This document shows positions 45,541-61,947 of a stretch of 64,000 nt of DNA, piece by piece. This DNA comes from Candidatus Peribacteria bacterium (GTDB taxonomy: Bacteria > Patescibacteriota > Gracilibacteria > UBA1369 > 2-02-FULL-48-14), in the NCBI GenBank assembly GCA_943349825.1, contig CALQZQ010000002.1, forward strand, positions 124,001-188,000. Direction: 5' to 3'. The notes under the pieces are model-generated. The model was not told the DNA's origin. It saw only the letters and a list, made by a program, of their open reading frames with translations, and did no database searches. The position numbers and the translations under genes were made by a program. The stretch's first letter is position 1. Each line of letters begins with the position of its first letter.

Positions 45541-46161
45541 ATGAAACTCTCCAAGAAAAAAATCGCGTTTTTCATAGTCACCACGGCGGTCATCCTCGCG
45601 TTGAGCCCCTTCCTGGTCCAATCCCTCGCCAAAATCTACACCGTCGAAGACGTGCCTGCCGAAACCGTAGCCATCGTCTTTGGAGCAGGCCTCGGGAAAG
45701 CGGGTGGCCCCAGTGATGTGCTTTACGATCGGCTCACCGTAGCCTCCCAGCTCTACAAAGCCGGAAAAGTGCAAAAAATCCTCGTGTCCGGGGACAATTC
45801 TTACGAAAACTACAACGAACCCGAAGTCATGACCACCACCCTCATCGACGCCTTTGCCATTCCCGCCGCCGACATCGGCCAAGATTTTGCTGGTCGCCGC
45901 ACCTACGACACCTGCATCCGCGCCAAAGAAGTTTTTGGCATCGAACAGGCCATTCTCGTCACCCAAGATTTTCACTTGCCGCGTGCCCTCTACACCTGTA
46001 ATTCGCTGGGTATCGAAAGCGTGGGAGTCTCCGCCTCGCTGCAGCCCTATATTTTGGAAGATTATTACGCTTTTCGAGAGTATCCTGCCACCCTCGCTAT
46101 GTTCATGGATCTTTACCTGTGGTCGCCCGATTATATTGAAGGGGAAAAGGAAGAATGGTAG
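45541..46161 (+). CDS. SanA/YdcF-like membrane protein (DUF218)
   Basis: A 206-aa protein with one N-terminal membrane segment (IAFFIVTTAVILALSPFLV) and an outside DUF218 domain: AIVFGAGLGKAGGPSDVLYDRL, KILVSGDNSYENYNEPEVM, DFAGRRTYDTCIRAKEVF and ILVTQDFHLPRALYTC. SanA-type proteins influence envelope barrier function; the biochemical activity is not settled. The TAG stop lies inside the left target-site duplication of a mobile element. Confidence 0.88.
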   Translation: MKLSKKKIAFFIVTTAVILALSPFLVQSLAKIYTVEDVPAETVAIVFGAGLGKAGGPSDVLYDRLTVASQLYKAGKVQKILVSGDNSYENYNEPEVMTTTLIDAFAIPAADIGQDFAGRRTYDTCIRAKEVFGIEQAILVTQDFHLPRALYTCNSLGIESVGVSASLQPYILEDYYAFREYPATLAMFMDLYLWSPDYIEGEKEEW

Positions 46162-46163
46162 TT

Positions 46164-46470
46164 GACGTGAATCTTGAAACTCCCTTTTGCTTGTTAAGGG
46201 ACCTACTCACTTTTTGAAGCGGGGAGCGAAGGTACTCGGATGCATGATCCTCCTACCTTCTTCCTTAAGGTTTATGCTTCAGAAAGTGAGTAGGTCCCAA
46301 ACCGAAAGAGAGTTTGAAATTCCATAACAGATAGAAGTTCGTGTACCTTTTGGGAAGCATTAACCCTGAAGGAAGCGGAGAGAAAGTTCATGAACTTTCT
46401 CGGAGCGTTCCATGCTGAGTAAAAGGCACACGAACTTCTCTTCTTGGGTTTGGAGTTTCAAGATTCACGT
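46164..46470 (+). mobile_element. Foldback element of about 306 bp, copy A
   Basis: A noncoding element flanked by the direct repeat TAGTT (46159-46163 and 46471-46475). The terminal inverted repeats are ACGTGAATCTTGAAACTC at 46165-46182 and its complement at 46453-46470. Hairpin 1 has 23-nt arms at 46198-46220 and 46276-46298 with a nested hairpin (GAAGGTA/TACCTTC) inside. Hairpin 2 has 19-nt arms at 46333-46351 and 46421-46439 and encloses a perfect 22-bp palindrome at 46380-46401. A degenerate terminal-repeat copy (GAGAGTTTGAAATTC) separates the hairpins at 46308. It is the reverse complement of copy B. No ORF is present, so mobilisation would have to be in trans. Family unknown to me. Confidence 0.85.
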
Positions 46471-46479
46471 TAGTTTCCC

Positions 46480-46507
46480 TTGCAATCCTGTTAAAATCCT
46501 CTAAAAT
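46480..46507 (+). promoter_or_regulatory. Promoter of rpmF
   Basis: TTGCAA at 46480-46485, a 16-bp spacer and TAAAAT at 46502-46507 predict a start near 46514 and a leader of about 37 nt. The -35 box begins 5 bp after the right target-site duplication of element A. Confidence 0.6.
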
Positions 46508-46550: not shown

Positions 46551-46793
46551 ATGGCAAAACATGCAGTCCCGAAACAGAAGCAGTCGAAAGGACGTTCCAG
46601 TCGTCGTTACAAAACTTTTGTAGGTAAAACTCAAAAGAAATTGGCCAACGCCGCTGTAACCGTGATTTGCCCAAAATGCAGCGCTCCTGTGAAAATGCAC
46701 AATGTGTGTAAGGCCTGCGGCTTCTATCGTGGTAAAGACATGATGGCCAAGGTGAAAAAAGCGGAAGCCAAAGTCACCAAGATCAAAGCTTAG
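46551..46793 (+). CDS. rpmF: 50S ribosomal protein L32
   Basis: An 80-aa basic protein starting MAKHAVPKQKQSKGRSSRR, the classical L32 opening (AVPKxKxSKxRR). The zinc site is CPKCSAPVKMHNVCKACGFYRG with four cysteines. The C-terminal Lys/Ala-rich tail (KVKKAEAKVTKIKA) is longer than usual. It heads a group with nusB and rnc. Confidence 0.95.
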   Translation: MAKHAVPKQKQSKGRSSRRYKTFVGKTQKKLANAAVTVICPKCSAPVKMHNVCKACGFYRGKDMMAKVKKAEAKVTKIKA

Positions 46794-54598: not shown

Positions 54599-54691
54599 AA
54601 TCCTTCATTGAAAAGTCTTCCAACTCCCTCTACACTAGCTCTGCCTTTAAGGCATTTGTTCTTTGTAAATGTGGGCCCGTAGCTCAGTTGG

Positions 54692-54925
54692 TTAGAGCAG
54701 GAGGCTCAAGTCGAGCGAAGCTACGTTGAGATTAGGATTATGAGTTTCTGCGTGACAATTGTTACAGAGCAGAATGCATTTTTTGAGTTCTTTTAAGATG
54801 AATTCCTCTTTTCTATTGGAAAGAGCGCGTGCATCTAAATTGAAATCTTTCTCTTTAGGGTTGAGATGGTGAAAGGCAAGGGCGGATAGATTTTTTCTAT
54901 AACCACACTTGCTGCATTTACTCAT
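54692..54925 (-). CDS. HNH homing endonuclease-like ORF, antisense inside the tRNA intron
   Basis: A 77-aa protein reading opposite to the tRNA. It has a zinc-type pair CSKCGY, then LAFHHLNPKEKDF (HH of the HNH motif) and KKCILLCNNCHAETHN (N..H with a second zinc pair). This is a compact HNH nuclease of the type often found in group I introns. The frame ends inside the tRNA 5' exon, overlapping it by about 15 nt. It occupies what would be the loop of intron helix P1. Being antisense, it can be expressed only from its own transcript. Confidence 0.82.
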   Translation of the reverse strand: MSKCSKCGYRKNLSALAFHHLNPKEKDFNLDARALSNRKEEFILKELKKCILLCNNCHAETHNPNLNVASLDLSLLL

Positions 54926-55153
54926 AACCGAATTTTATCTCAATATGCTTCCCTTGCAAGGGCTGTTGGTAGAGGAATCTACCAATGAACATTTGCCAAA
55001 TTCGGGGAACCCTTCCTGCATCATGCAGTGGCGATCCCGAGCCAAGACCTCATTGAGGTAAGGTGTAGAGACTAGACGGCAAACACCCAGAACGGGTGAA
55101 GGTATAGTCCAGCTCACGAACTCGAAAGAGGTCACGAAAGTGATAGCGAGACG
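54707..55153 (+). other. Group I intron, IC3-like (447 nt)
   Basis: The 3' half has the conserved core in order: a P2 hairpin TTGGTAGA-GGAA-TCTACCAA, CCAAATTCGGGGAACCC (P3/P4), CGAGCCAAG, AAGGTGTAGAGACTAGACGG (P7) and GAAGGTATAGTCC (J8/7-P7), close to the well-studied tRNA-Ile(CAU) intron of Azoarcus. The proposed boundaries satisfy both rules: the 5' exon ends in U and the intron ends in G. A possible guide sequence GGCT at about 54960 pairs with the exon end GGCU through a U-G pair. The exact splice sites are inferred. Confidence 0.88.
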
Positions 55154-55207
55154 CATAACTTCTTGGTCGTTGGTTCAAGTCCAACCGGGCCCACCATCCA
55201 AAAGTAC

Positions 55208-56685: not shown

Positions 56686-57237
56686 ATGCCTAAAGATGAG
56701 AACATACCAACTGCTCCGCCGCCAAAGCCAGATCCAAGAGTTTTGGTCGCTAAACCACATCCTCGAGAAGTAAAGGGTGACGCAAATGTCGATGAGTGGA
56801 CAGCGCTTGAACAAAGCACAACAGCTTTTTTAAATGAATTGGCTACTGAATTGTTTAGATACAGGTCAGCTATCCTTGCGGGTACGTACTTTTCTGTGTT
56901 TTGTTGTGCAGTCCCAATAGTTGCGCAGTGTGGCTTCAAAATAGGTGGCATGACATCTGAAAAGACTCCAACTGGCCATACACCACATTTTACTCAGCCT
57001 GAAGAGCGCCTCGTACAAGTGGTGGGCGCTAGGGGCTCTATGCAGCTTACAGATCCCGGTTTAGCTCAGGGACAATTTATCTGTGACAAGGAGTCTTCCC
57101 ATGTAAGTGTAACAAGCTGTCAAGGAGAATACTCTGTCACGGTAGATTACCGATGTGAAGTGGGACCCAATGCAACCAACATTTACCGCACGGTGAATTA
57201 CCAATGGGACCCAAACTGCTCACTCTCTACTCAATGA
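56686..57237 (+). CDS. Single-pass membrane protein coupled to a calpain-like protease
   Basis: A 183-aa protein. The Pro-rich N-terminal part (PTAPPPKPDPRVLVAKPHPRE) is followed by a membrane segment at about 65-85 (AILAGTYFSVFCCAVPIVAQ) and an outside C-terminal domain with four cysteines (FICDKES, TSCQGEY, DYRCEVG, PNCSLS), probably disulfide-bonded. No family recognised. Its stop overlaps the protease ATG as ATGA, so the two are very likely partners. Confidence 0.65.
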   Translation: MPKDENIPTAPPPKPDPRVLVAKPHPREVKGDANVDEWTALEQSTTAFLNELATELFRYRSAILAGTYFSVFCCAVPIVAQCGFKIGGMTSEKTPTGHTPHFTQPEERLVQVVGARGSMQLTDPGLAQGQFICDKESSHVSVTSCQGEYSVTVDYRCEVGPNATNIYRTVNYQWDPNCSLSTQ

Positions 57238-58328
57238 AAAGAGACCCTAATCTTTTTGGAGAAAATTTCCTTAGGAATTTTGATTCCGCACAAGGCTTAA
57301 ATTCAGATTTAAGCGACTTGCATCGTGATTCTATGGAGTCCTTAAGGAGGTTTAGAAGTATGAAGGCGGAAGGAAACGAAGCGAGGGAACTGAAGTCCGA
57401 TTTCTTCCCCCGAGGGAGGCTCAGGGAGAATTATGTAGCCGGCGTAAATGCAGCTAGTTCTAGAAGAGTGGCTGCCGCGGCTGACGACTTGAGAGAGATG
57501 TTTTTTAGAAGAGTGCTTTTGACCACGCAAGTTTTACATGAAAGACGGGAAAACTTTACTCGCTCCAGTTTAATGATAGATCATCCGGCTCACCACGTTT
57601 GGAGTGCCGAAGACAACCGCTTAAGTACGGTGGGGATGACACAAGGAGGCTTTGGGACCTGCTACCTTTTGGGTGTGATGAGTGGGATGTCTACTCATCC
57701 AACAGGTTTTCTGCACCTACAGCGTGCAATTGATCCCACACCTTCCAATAGTCAGTGGACAGTATCTTTCGGAGATTACTCCACCGTAATCAAAGTCTCG
57801 GACTTAATAGAAATAGAGTCCGTAAGGGGGAGGGCGGGTGTGCAAGCAAACTCATGTGCGCTCGAAATTTTGGAAAGAGCCTATCTCCGCTATCAAAAAG
57901 AACAGGTAGACGCCTATATTCCAACTATTCGCAAGGAAGAAATGGAAGGAGAAGGTGATGGTAAAGGAGGTGGTGCTAAAGGTAAACGCCAAGTCTTTCA
58001 GGATTTTGTAAGGCCATCTTATTTGGAAAGTGCAAGATATGCCACACCCTCCATGGGCGTACTAAATTCACACAACTCTAGAAGAATCCTGACCGCTTGG
58101 ACTCGCCCCTCTCCTCATTGGAAACTTGAATTCGTGAGTGAGGCCCGTGGTAAAAATGTTGAGGTCATCAACCACCACGCCTATACTCTGGAACAGATAG
58201 ATCGGAGTAGGCAAAACTTGGTCATTGTAAACCCACACGACACCGAACGACTTCGCTGGCGACTGACCTTTGAAGAATTTTGCAAACGGTTCCATCATCT
58301 TTACGTGGGAACTTTCCGGGAACTATAA
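57234..58328 (+). CDS. Calpain-like cysteine protease (C2-type)
   Basis: I use ATG 57234, which overlaps the previous stop; the track start at 57204 is in the upstream gene. The 364-aa protein carries the three catalytic positions of papain-fold calpains. Cys is in TQGGFGTCYLLGVMSGM (compare QGxxGDCWLLAA), His in VINHHAYTLEQID and Asn in LVIVNPHDTERLRW. ALEILERAYLRYQKEQ matches the calpain segment before the insert. Residues 1-115 are a charged helical N-terminal region. There is no signal peptide. The call rests on motif reading and spacing. Confidence 0.7.
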   Translation: MKRDPNLFGENFLRNFDSAQGLNSDLSDLHRDSMESLRRFRSMKAEGNEARELKSDFFPRGRLRENYVAGVNAASSRRVAAAADDLREMFFRRVLLTTQVLHERRENFTRSSLMIDHPAHHVWSAEDNRLSTVGMTQGGFGTCYLLGVMSGMSTHPTGFLHLQRAIDPTPSNSQWTVSFGDYSTVIKVSDLIEIESVRGRAGVQANSCALEILERAYLRYQKEQVDAYIPTIRKEEMEGEGDGKGGGAKGKRQVFQDFVRPSYLESARYATPSMGVLNSHNSRRILTAWTRPSPHWKLEFVSEARGKNVEVINHHAYTLEQIDRSRQNLVIVNPHDTERLRWRLTFEEFCKRFHHLYVGTFREL

Positions 58329-59894: not shown

Positions 59895-60857
59895 ATGCAA
59901 AGCGATCTGATTAGAAAAGCCACGGAAGTCCTCCAAGGGGGAGGTCTCGTCGCTTTTCCCACCGAAACGGTTTATGGCCTCGGGGCCAACGCCTTTGAAA
60001 GTGCTGCTGTCGAAAAAATCTTCAGCATGAAGGAGCGTCCCAGTTCCAATCCGCTCATCGTACACATCGCTGAAATCAGCCAGTTAAAAGATTTGGTTGA
60101 AAAAGTAGAACCCATGGAACAGCTGCTGATTGCTGCTTTTTGGCCTGGCCCGCTCACGCTCGTGTTCCCAAAGTCCGACAAAGTACCCAAAATCGTCAGT
60201 GGCGGCTTAAAAACCGTGGCGGTGCGCATGCCGGCTCACCCGATGGCCTTGGAACTGATCAAGAGCTGTGGCTTTCCCATAGCCGCTCCTTCGGCCAATC
60301 CATCCGGCAAACCCAGCGCCACCCACCACGAGCACGTAAAAGCCTATTTTGGAGATCGCATCTTCCGCATGGAAGGAGGCGAAACCCAGCACGGCTTGGA
60401 ATCGACCGTGGTTCAGGTGAAAAACAAAGTGCCGCACATCTATCGTCTTGGCTCGGTGACTCCGGAAGACATCGAACGTGTAACAGGTGTAAAGCCCGTG
60501 ATAGACACGCGTTCACCGCATTCGCCGGGCACCCATTTCAAGCACTATTCCCCAGAAACGCAGCTCTGCGTCTTGACTAAAGAAGTCTGGAAAACCCGCA
60601 TTTACCAAGCCCTGGAGCACGGCAAGCGCGTGGGCATTTTGGCCACCACAGAAAGCGCCAGAAGTTTGAGAGGTTTCGAAGTCACCGTCTTCGATCTTGG
60701 CTCCGAATCCAACCTCATGGAAGTAGGCTCCCGCCTCTACAGTGGCTTGATTGAGCTCGATCAACAGAAGTTGAATATAATTTTTGTTCAAGAATTTCCA
60801 AAAACAGGTTTGGGACTCGCCATCATGGACAGGCTCCAACGCGCTGCCAGCCGCTAA
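59895..60857 (+). CDS. L-threonylcarbamoyladenylate synthase (Sua5/TsaC)
   Basis: A 320-aa two-domain Sua5-type enzyme that makes threonylcarbamoyl-AMP for the t6A modification at tRNA position 37. The YrdC domain has FPTETVYGLGANAF, KERPSSNPLIVHI and APSANPSGKPSATHH. The Sua5 domain (after about residue 215: SPHSPGTHFKHYSPE) is complete, so this is the longer Sua5 form. The stop TAA is shared with the left target-site duplication and first base of element B. Confidence 0.95.
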   Translation: MQSDLIRKATEVLQGGGLVAFPTETVYGLGANAFESAAVEKIFSMKERPSSNPLIVHIAEISQLKDLVEKVEPMEQLLIAAFWPGPLTLVFPKSDKVPKIVSGGLKTVAVRMPAHPMALELIKSCGFPIAAPSANPSGKPSATHHEHVKAYFGDRIFRMEGGETQHGLESTVVQVKNKVPHIYRLGSVTPEDIERVTGVKPVIDTRSPHSPGTHFKHYSPETQLCVLTKEVWKTRIYQALEHGKRVGILATTESARSLRGFEVTVFDLGSESNLMEVGSRLYSGLIELDQQKLNIIFVQEFPKTGLGLAIMDRLQRAASR

Positions 60858-61161
60858 CGTGAATCTTGAAACTCCAAAGCCAAGAAGAGATGTTTGTGCG
60901 CCTTCTGCTGAGCATGGAGCGCTCTGAGAAAGTTCATGAACTTTCTCTCCGCTTCCTTTCATGCTTGATGCTTCCCAAAAGGCGCACAAACATCTACCTG
61001 TTATGGAATTTCAAACTCTCTTTCGGTTTGGGACATACTCACTTTCTGAAGCACAAACCTTAAGGAAGAAGGTGCGAGGATCATGCATCCGAGTACCTTC
61101 GCTCCCGCTTCAGAAAGTGAGTATGTCCCTTAGAGCGGGAAGAGAGTTTCAAGATTCACCT
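60857..61161 (-). mobile_element. Foldback element of about 305 bp, copy B
   Basis: It is flanked by the direct repeat CGCTA (60852-60856 and 61162-61166). The terminal repeats are ACGTGAATCTTGAAACTC at 60857-60874 and GAGTTTCAAGATTCACCT at 61144-61161. The copy is the reverse complement of copy A in order and sequence. The hairpin with 19-nt arms is at 60888-60906 and 60977-60995, holding the same 22-bp palindrome at 60926-60947. The hairpin with perfect 23-bp arms is at 61030-61052 and 61107-61129. The central degenerate terminal repeat is GAATTTCAAACTCTC at 61006. Noncoding. Confidence 0.85.
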
Positions 61162-61169
61162 CGCTAAGC

Positions 61170-61198
61170 TTGCAAACAGATCGGTTTCATTTTAGAAT
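61170..61198 (+). promoter_or_regulatory. Promoter of the C39-like peptidase gene
   Basis: TTGCAA at 61170-61175, a 17-bp spacer and TAGAAT at 61193-61198 give a start near 61205, about 5 nt before the ATG at 61210. The -35 box begins 4 bp after the right target-site duplication of element B. Confidence 0.6.
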
Positions 61199-61209
61199 CA
61201 TAGTCCACA

Positions 61210-61947
61210 ATGAAAACCGACCTCAAAAACAAGACTCTCTTCCTCGTCATCGTCCTGATTGCTTTTCTGGACGGCATGTTGGTGATGCAGCACGTTTCGG
61301 AGAGCGCCCCCGTCAGCACGGCGAATCAGGTGCGTGTGCTTCAGGATTCCCTCAGTTCTAAAACAGCACCGGCAGCACTCACCGAAGTCATCGCCACAGA
61401 GCCCGAAGCCAAATCCGTCCCTTTCACAACTCAAGCGCCTCTGGGCTACTGGACCACAAAACCTTGGGCCGATTTTGCCGAAGAAGCCTGCGTCTACATG
61501 GCCTACAAGTGGGGAACGGATTCGGAAATGCCAGGCACCGCCGAAACCGCCACCAATCTGGAAGCCATCGGCCAGTGGGAAACGGAACATCTGGGCAGCT
61601 CTGCCCTCACCGACATTTCGCAAACCCTGCAAATCCTCAACCAAGCTCTGGGTTACGCCAAGGCTACGATCAGCACAGACACATCTGTTGCGAACCTAAA
61701 AACCCTGCTCGATAGTGGCGCCATCCTCATTGTGCCCGTGAACGGGCAAATCCTCGATAACCGTTACTATGGAGACCCTGCGCCGGAGTACCACATGATT
61801 GTGCTCTACGACTACAATGCCGAGGGCTTCCTGGCCAACGACCCTGGTACTTCTCGTGGAAAGGGAGCGCTTTACCCAGAAACAAAAATCCTGGAGAGTC
61901 TCCAGGATTTGAATGGTGAGAAAAGAATGATCGTCGTGACCCGTTAA
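61210..61947 (+). CDS. C39-like peptidase domain protein, membrane-anchored
   Basis: A 245-aa protein with an N-terminal signal or anchor (TLFLVIVLIAFLDGMLVM) and an outside papain-like C39_2 domain. The expected catalytic residues are visible: Cys in FAEEACVYMAYKW, His in EYHMIVLYDYN and Asp in LANDPGT. It begins PFTTQAPLGYW, as is usual for this family. It is probably a secreted cysteine peptidase or peptidoglycan amidase-like enzyme. The 3' end overlaps rpsT by 4 nt. Confidence 0.85.
   Translation: MKTDLKNKTLFLVIVLIAFLDGMLVMQHVSESAPVSTANQVRVLQDSLSSKTAPAALTEVIATEPEAKSVPFTTQAPLGYWTTKPWADFAEEACVYMAYKWGTDSEMPGTAETATNLEAIGQWETEHLGSSALTDISQTLQILNQALGYAKATISTDTSVANLKTLLDSGAILIVPVNGQILDNRYYGDPAPEYHMIVLYDYNAEGFLANDPGTSRGKGALYPETKILESLQDLNGEKRMIVVTR

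Follow-up and report, generated by a model that had tools for sequence, protein, structure and literature searches.

A MITE-like foldback element in a Peregrinibacteria genome lies mostly between stop codons and predicted promoters

The stretch of 64,000 nt analysed here (the window) contains two copies, A and B, of an element ~306 bp in length, both bounded by 18-bp terminal inverted repeats (TIRs; ACGTGAATCTTGAAACTC / GAGTTTCAAGATTCACGT). Copy A, which runs ACGTGAATC...GATTCACGT, separates a DUF218 (SanA-like) gene from the ribosomal protein gene rpmF, and copy B separates a tsaC-like gene from a gene for a weakly C39-peptidase-like protein (Table 1). The two copies are inverted with respect to each other, lie ~14 kb apart in the window and are 89–90% identical across 306 bp. 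The original prediction held that the element sits between a stop codon and the −35 box of the next gene, with the stop kept or rebuilt at the left junction, and this is what is found at both loci. The TAG of the DUF218 gene lies inside the target-site duplication (TSD) and copy A begins 3 nt after it, while the TAA of the tsaC-like gene (60855–60857) is made of the TA of the left TSD and the first base (A) of copy B. The distances between the right TSD and TTGCAA, given before as 5 and 4 nt, had to be corrected to 4 nt for A and 3 nt for B.

Table 1. Features at the loci of copies A and B, in window coordinates
Feature	Position	Strand	Remark
Upstream gene of A, DUF218 (SanA-like)	45541..46161	+	
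Left TSD of A, TAGTT	46159..46163	+	Includes the TAG stop (46159–46161) of the DUF218/SanA-like gene
Copy A	46165..46470	+	306 bp; TIRs enclosing two long hairpins
Hairpin module a of A	46199..46300	+	Loop GGATGCATGATCC; approximate bounds
Hairpin module b of A	46332..46440	-	Inverted relative of a; inner loop GTTCATGAAC; approximate bounds
Right TSD of A, TAGTT	46471..46475	+	
rpmF promoter	46480..46507	+	TTGCAA (46480–46485), 16 nt, TAAAAT (46502–46507); predicted from sequence
Downstream gene of A, rpmF (ribosomal protein L32)	46551..46793	+	
Upstream gene of B, tsaC-like threonylcarbamoyl-AMP synthase (Sua5)	59895..60857	+	
Left TSD of B, CGCTA	60852..60856	+	Read on the + strand
Copy B	60857..61161	-	Opposite orientation to A
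Right TSD of B, CGCTA	61162..61166	+	
Predicted promoter beside B	61170..61198	+	TTGCAA (61170–61175), 17 nt, TAGAAT (61193–61198)
Downstream gene of B, weakly C39-peptidase-like protein	61210..61947	+	E 3e-4, below the Pfam cut-off

Searching the complete assembly (1.25 Mb, 12 contigs) recovered 12 copies of the family at 12 places on 6 contigs (L001–L012, where L001 is A and L002 is B) and, in the same Peregrinibacteria genome (G000), one extra relative with a single hairpin module, L123. All matches of a genome-wide TIR search allowing up to two mismatches belong to known copies, and the TIRs are intact at the expected ends of copies. TSDs of 5–7 bp are present in L001, L002, L004, L008 and L011, the duplicated sequences being TAGTT, TAGCG, TATTT(T), CTAAA and TTTTAAG, and a recognisable TSD is absent at L003 and L005. 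Five copies (L006, L007, L009, L010 and L012) are eroded, each being truncated on the side of the stop codon. The only open reading frames listed at the loci, on either strand, overlap the edges of the element, and none resembles an element gene. The family is thus short, carries TIRs, duplicates its target and occurs in several dispersed copies, and we regard it as MITE-like because of the TSDs seen in five of them. L003 and L006 are only ~2 kb apart on one contig (G000:C5:35829-38429), one in a divergent and the other in a convergent gap.

The two hairpin modules, a and b, are inverted to each other and share a common plan, comprising an outer stem that varies, a conserved GGAGCG/CTTCC internal loop and, innermost, a short hairpin whose loop contains CATGA; in both modules GGAGCG stands at the foot of the inner hairpin. 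The fold of A and B is very strong (z about −12), and the stems covary strongly across copies (0 of 500 shuffles, with slid controls far lower). In the alignments of the hairpins of L001–L012 (A1 and A2), many pairs have changed on both sides, almost never via G–U. Covariation with hardly any G–U is what template-switch homogenisation of inverted-repeat arms would give, which suggests such a process; homogenisation of repeat arms by template switching is documented (PMC8604942). RNA selection, by contrast, would be expected to leave more G–U pairs, and the pattern cautions that upkeep of palindromes at the DNA level can give rise to what looks like RNA covariation. A known Rfam RNA family was rejected, there being no match at gathering score: the scan of the window gave nothing over A or B, and that of five loci gave only sub-threshold miRNA and sRNA matches.

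The same hairpins could be seen as a putative insulator, a role also among the original suggestions: copies would be kept where transcription from upstream meets a promoter or an opposing gene, having been exapted to stop or process the incoming transcript and thereby shield the promoter. The strength of the fold and the preserved pairing would suit this role, as would the location of most copies between a stop and a promoter and of L006, L010 and a relative in genome G003 in convergent gaps. Yet the sequence after the hairpins lacks the U-tract of an intrinsic terminator, the rarity of G–U intermediates fits palindrome repair better than RNA selection, five copies have been eroded, and relatives do without the element at the same sites. 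We consider an insulating function improbable.

Searches for a mobilising enzyme in the element's own genome found neither a Y1 transposase (PF01797) nor a DDE_Tnp_1 transposase, and the latter was rejected as the mover on that ground. Y1 transposases occur in some relatives, and the models of the two hairpins gave nothing above noise near these genes; Y1 (IS200/RAYT) enzymes, being absent from the genome and unconvincingly linked to the hairpins elsewhere, were likewise discarded. These results bear on a likeness to REP/BIME elements, which are also extragenic and consist of an inverted hairpin pair with a GGAG-like tag; a REP-associated tyrosine transposase would then have moved the two inverted, GGAG-tagged modules. 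The GGAGCG shared by both modules and the Y1 genes of some relatives agree with this proposal, but the lack of such a gene in the own genome and the negative hairpin searches do not. Moreover, the element has TIRs and TSDs, and Y1 transposition is not expected to give target duplications. A BIME-like origin therefore appears very improbable. A TIR search of IMG/VR returned a single match (L149), which was taken as chance, since the sequence around it looks coding and a partner TIR is missing. An autonomous partner with a matching TIR was not found among the Y1 and DDE_Tnp_1 transposases searched for in G000 or among the IMG/VR TIR matches.

Mapping of all genomic copies, a check proposed with the original prediction, revealed a strong positional rule. 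No copy out of 12 lies inside a gene, and 10 touch a stop codon; the other two, L003 and L008, are located between divergent genes, where there is no stop. The stop overlaps the TSD in L001, L002, L004 and L011. It is retained within the duplication in A and L011, whereas in B and L004 the element's first base turns the TA left at the junction into TAA or TAG. In L005 the stop is 2 nt from the element edge, and L006, L007, L009, L010 and L012 touch or supply it on their truncated side. L006 and L010 occupy convergent gaps, where there is no promoter, and none is clear at L012. Against the 10 of 12 copies at stops, null models built on the 64-kb window put only ~5% of random intergenic points at 5 nt or less from a stop, and this figure holds with or without excluding up to 55 nt before starts and with or without a TA requirement. 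Preference for TA alone was rejected as the cause of stop adjacency, since intergenic points next to a TA are no closer to stops (4–6%). If each of the five intact junctions on the stop side is placed uniformly within its own gap, with gap lengths measured by hand, the probabilities multiply to 9e-7, rising to 1e-3 if 45 nt are set aside for the promoter. Target selectivity for gene ends, one of the explanations put forward earlier, is in keeping with these 10 copies but not with L003 and L008, which without a stop still end 9–11 nt from a TTG. Stop codons are therefore probably not the primary landmark, and the stop as sole landmark was dropped in view of these two copies and of relatives in genome G005 described below.

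The promoter is a tighter landmark. The distance from the element edge to the start of the −35 TTG is 9 nt in L001, L003, L007 and L011, 8 nt in L002, 10 nt in L004 and 11 nt in L008, i.e. 8–11 nt for seven of the eight intact ends that face a promoter, all promoters being predicted by sequence only; the eighth, L005, ends at 2 nt. A −10-like hexamer follows 16–18 nt past each TTG and is poor in the divergent-gap copies L003 and L008. In intact copies ~3–4 nt separate the end of the TSD from the −35 box that follows, and the site usually falls on the stop of the preceding gene. In the window, a TTG-type promoter is found at 8–11 nt from 2.7% of random intergenic points and from 6% of positions at stops. 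The probability of seven out of eight arising by chance is about 1e-8 with either edge allowed and 2e-6 when conditioned on sitting at a stop, for an 8–11 nt range that was chosen after seeing the data. Most intact copies fit a rule of ending one helical turn before the −35 box. A TAR motif ahead of the −35 is only mildly informative, because it is already present in about a third of window promoters (7 of 22).

Selection for harmless sites, also suggested originally, could in principle produce such a pattern unaided: insertion would be random in TA-rich DNA, and survivors would be confined to the few bases from a stop to a promoter or between convergent stops. Indeed, no gene is interrupted, and many promoters in this genome begin within 3–22 nt of the preceding gene. 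However, even placement over the free DNA between the upstream gene and the −35 box, as expected of neutral insertion, would yield the 8–11 nt spacing in just 4.6%, roomier gaps exist and are unused, and L003 and L008 keep the spacing in divergent gaps. Under the most lenient null, in which each gap is given equal weight, 30% is expected and p is a modest 0.0014, and the stop-adjacency product is a similarly modest 1e-3 once the promoter is excluded. The neutral model is thus disfavoured, and purifying selection as the only cause seems to us a reasonable minority possibility.

Relatives of the host provide empty sites. At L004, G001, a member of the same genus, is without the element, and its sequence matches the joined flanks over their full length, TAA-GG-TTGAC...TATACT included. 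G001 and G003, both of which lack the element beside rpmF, retain the promoter of that gene, with TTGCAA and a −10-like hexamer. Since element-free relatives keep them, the promoters at A and L004 predate the insertion. Covariance models of both hairpins found relatives of the element only within the same family of the order, namely L123 in the own genome, two places each in G004 and G005 and one in G003. In G005, from a sister genus, the relatives have a single hairpin; one copy ends 8 nt upstream of the −35 box of rplC (TTGACA-17-TAACAT), with the preceding stop ~27 nt away, and the other ends ~5 nt upstream of the −35 box of gapA. L123 ends 2 nt before TTGGGA, the G003 relative fills a convergent gap, and of the two G004 copies one carries the stop of the preceding gene and the other lies in a divergent gap. 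Separately, the distant Peregrinibacterium G044 carries a hairpin that shares the TCGGATRCATGATCCTC loop, in six copies (L054, L056, L057, L065, L067 and L069).

We favour, with a probability of about one half, the interpretation of a MITE-like, non-autonomous foldback transposon that inserts preferentially into DNA upstream of promoters and whose surviving copies have been sieved by selection in a compact genome. The mobilising transposase would come from elsewhere and would now be either missing or undetected, and its targets would be 5-mers containing TA that lie roughly one helical turn before a pre-existing promoter of the sigma-70 type. Any insertion that disrupts a gene or a promoter would be lost, and in so compact a genome the tolerated spot would often coincide with the stop codon of the preceding gene, which would survive either inside the duplication, as in A and L011, or as TA plus the first base of the element, as in B and L004. 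Where a truncated copy touches a stop on its eroded side, the simplest account would be a later deletion that reached the stop. Promoter targeting alone would leave unexplained that the chosen promoters are mostly those directly behind a stop. By analogy, the bias might go further, the family integrating about one helical turn upstream of active sigma-70 −35 boxes under the guidance of RNA polymerase or promoter DNA structure. This idea is tentative and rather unlikely.

The element resembles bacterial MITEs such as Correia elements, ERIC and RUP in being short, apparently gene-less, intergenic and strongly structured, with TIRs and duplication of TA sites. It differs from them in its two inverted hairpin modules, with stems that change freely yet remain paired, in its tight spacing to the −35 box and in that the searches for Y1 and DDE_Tnp_1 enzymes gave no partner transposase. 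A behavioural analogy only, insertion at a set distance from promoters, links it to yeast retrotransposons of the Ty3/Ty1 type, some of which are guided in their integration by RNA polymerase III; mechanism, host and element class are different, and no integrase is known here. Pneumococcal BOX elements are similar in that a repeat at the 3′ end of a gene supplies the stop codon: 36 of 58 overlapping coding sequences obtain their stop in this way, often at the extreme 3′ end (PMC3049150). BOX elements are, however, built of modular boxA/B/C units of unrelated sequence, and fixed promoter spacing is not reported for them in the passages cited (PMC3049150). The literature searched yielded no papers on small mobile elements in Peregrinibacteria or in the CPR as a whole. 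Should the spacing be due to targeting, the family would be a bacterial example of promoter-guided integration and a natural marker of promoters in unculturable organisms; should it be due to selection alone, it would measure how little free DNA such compact genomes hold.

Between the two copies, the window also contains a tRNA gene (exons 54673–55196) interrupted by a group I intron (RF00028, 61.7 bits, match 54941–55134), and ARAGORN with introns allowed reports one split tRNA at 54673–55196. A 77-aa ORF that by eye looks like an HNH endonuclease (54692–54925) lies on the strand opposite to the split tRNA. Further along, a 374-aa ORF (57204–58328) with a GGFGTCYLLG motif resembles, again by eye, a calpain-type cysteine protease.
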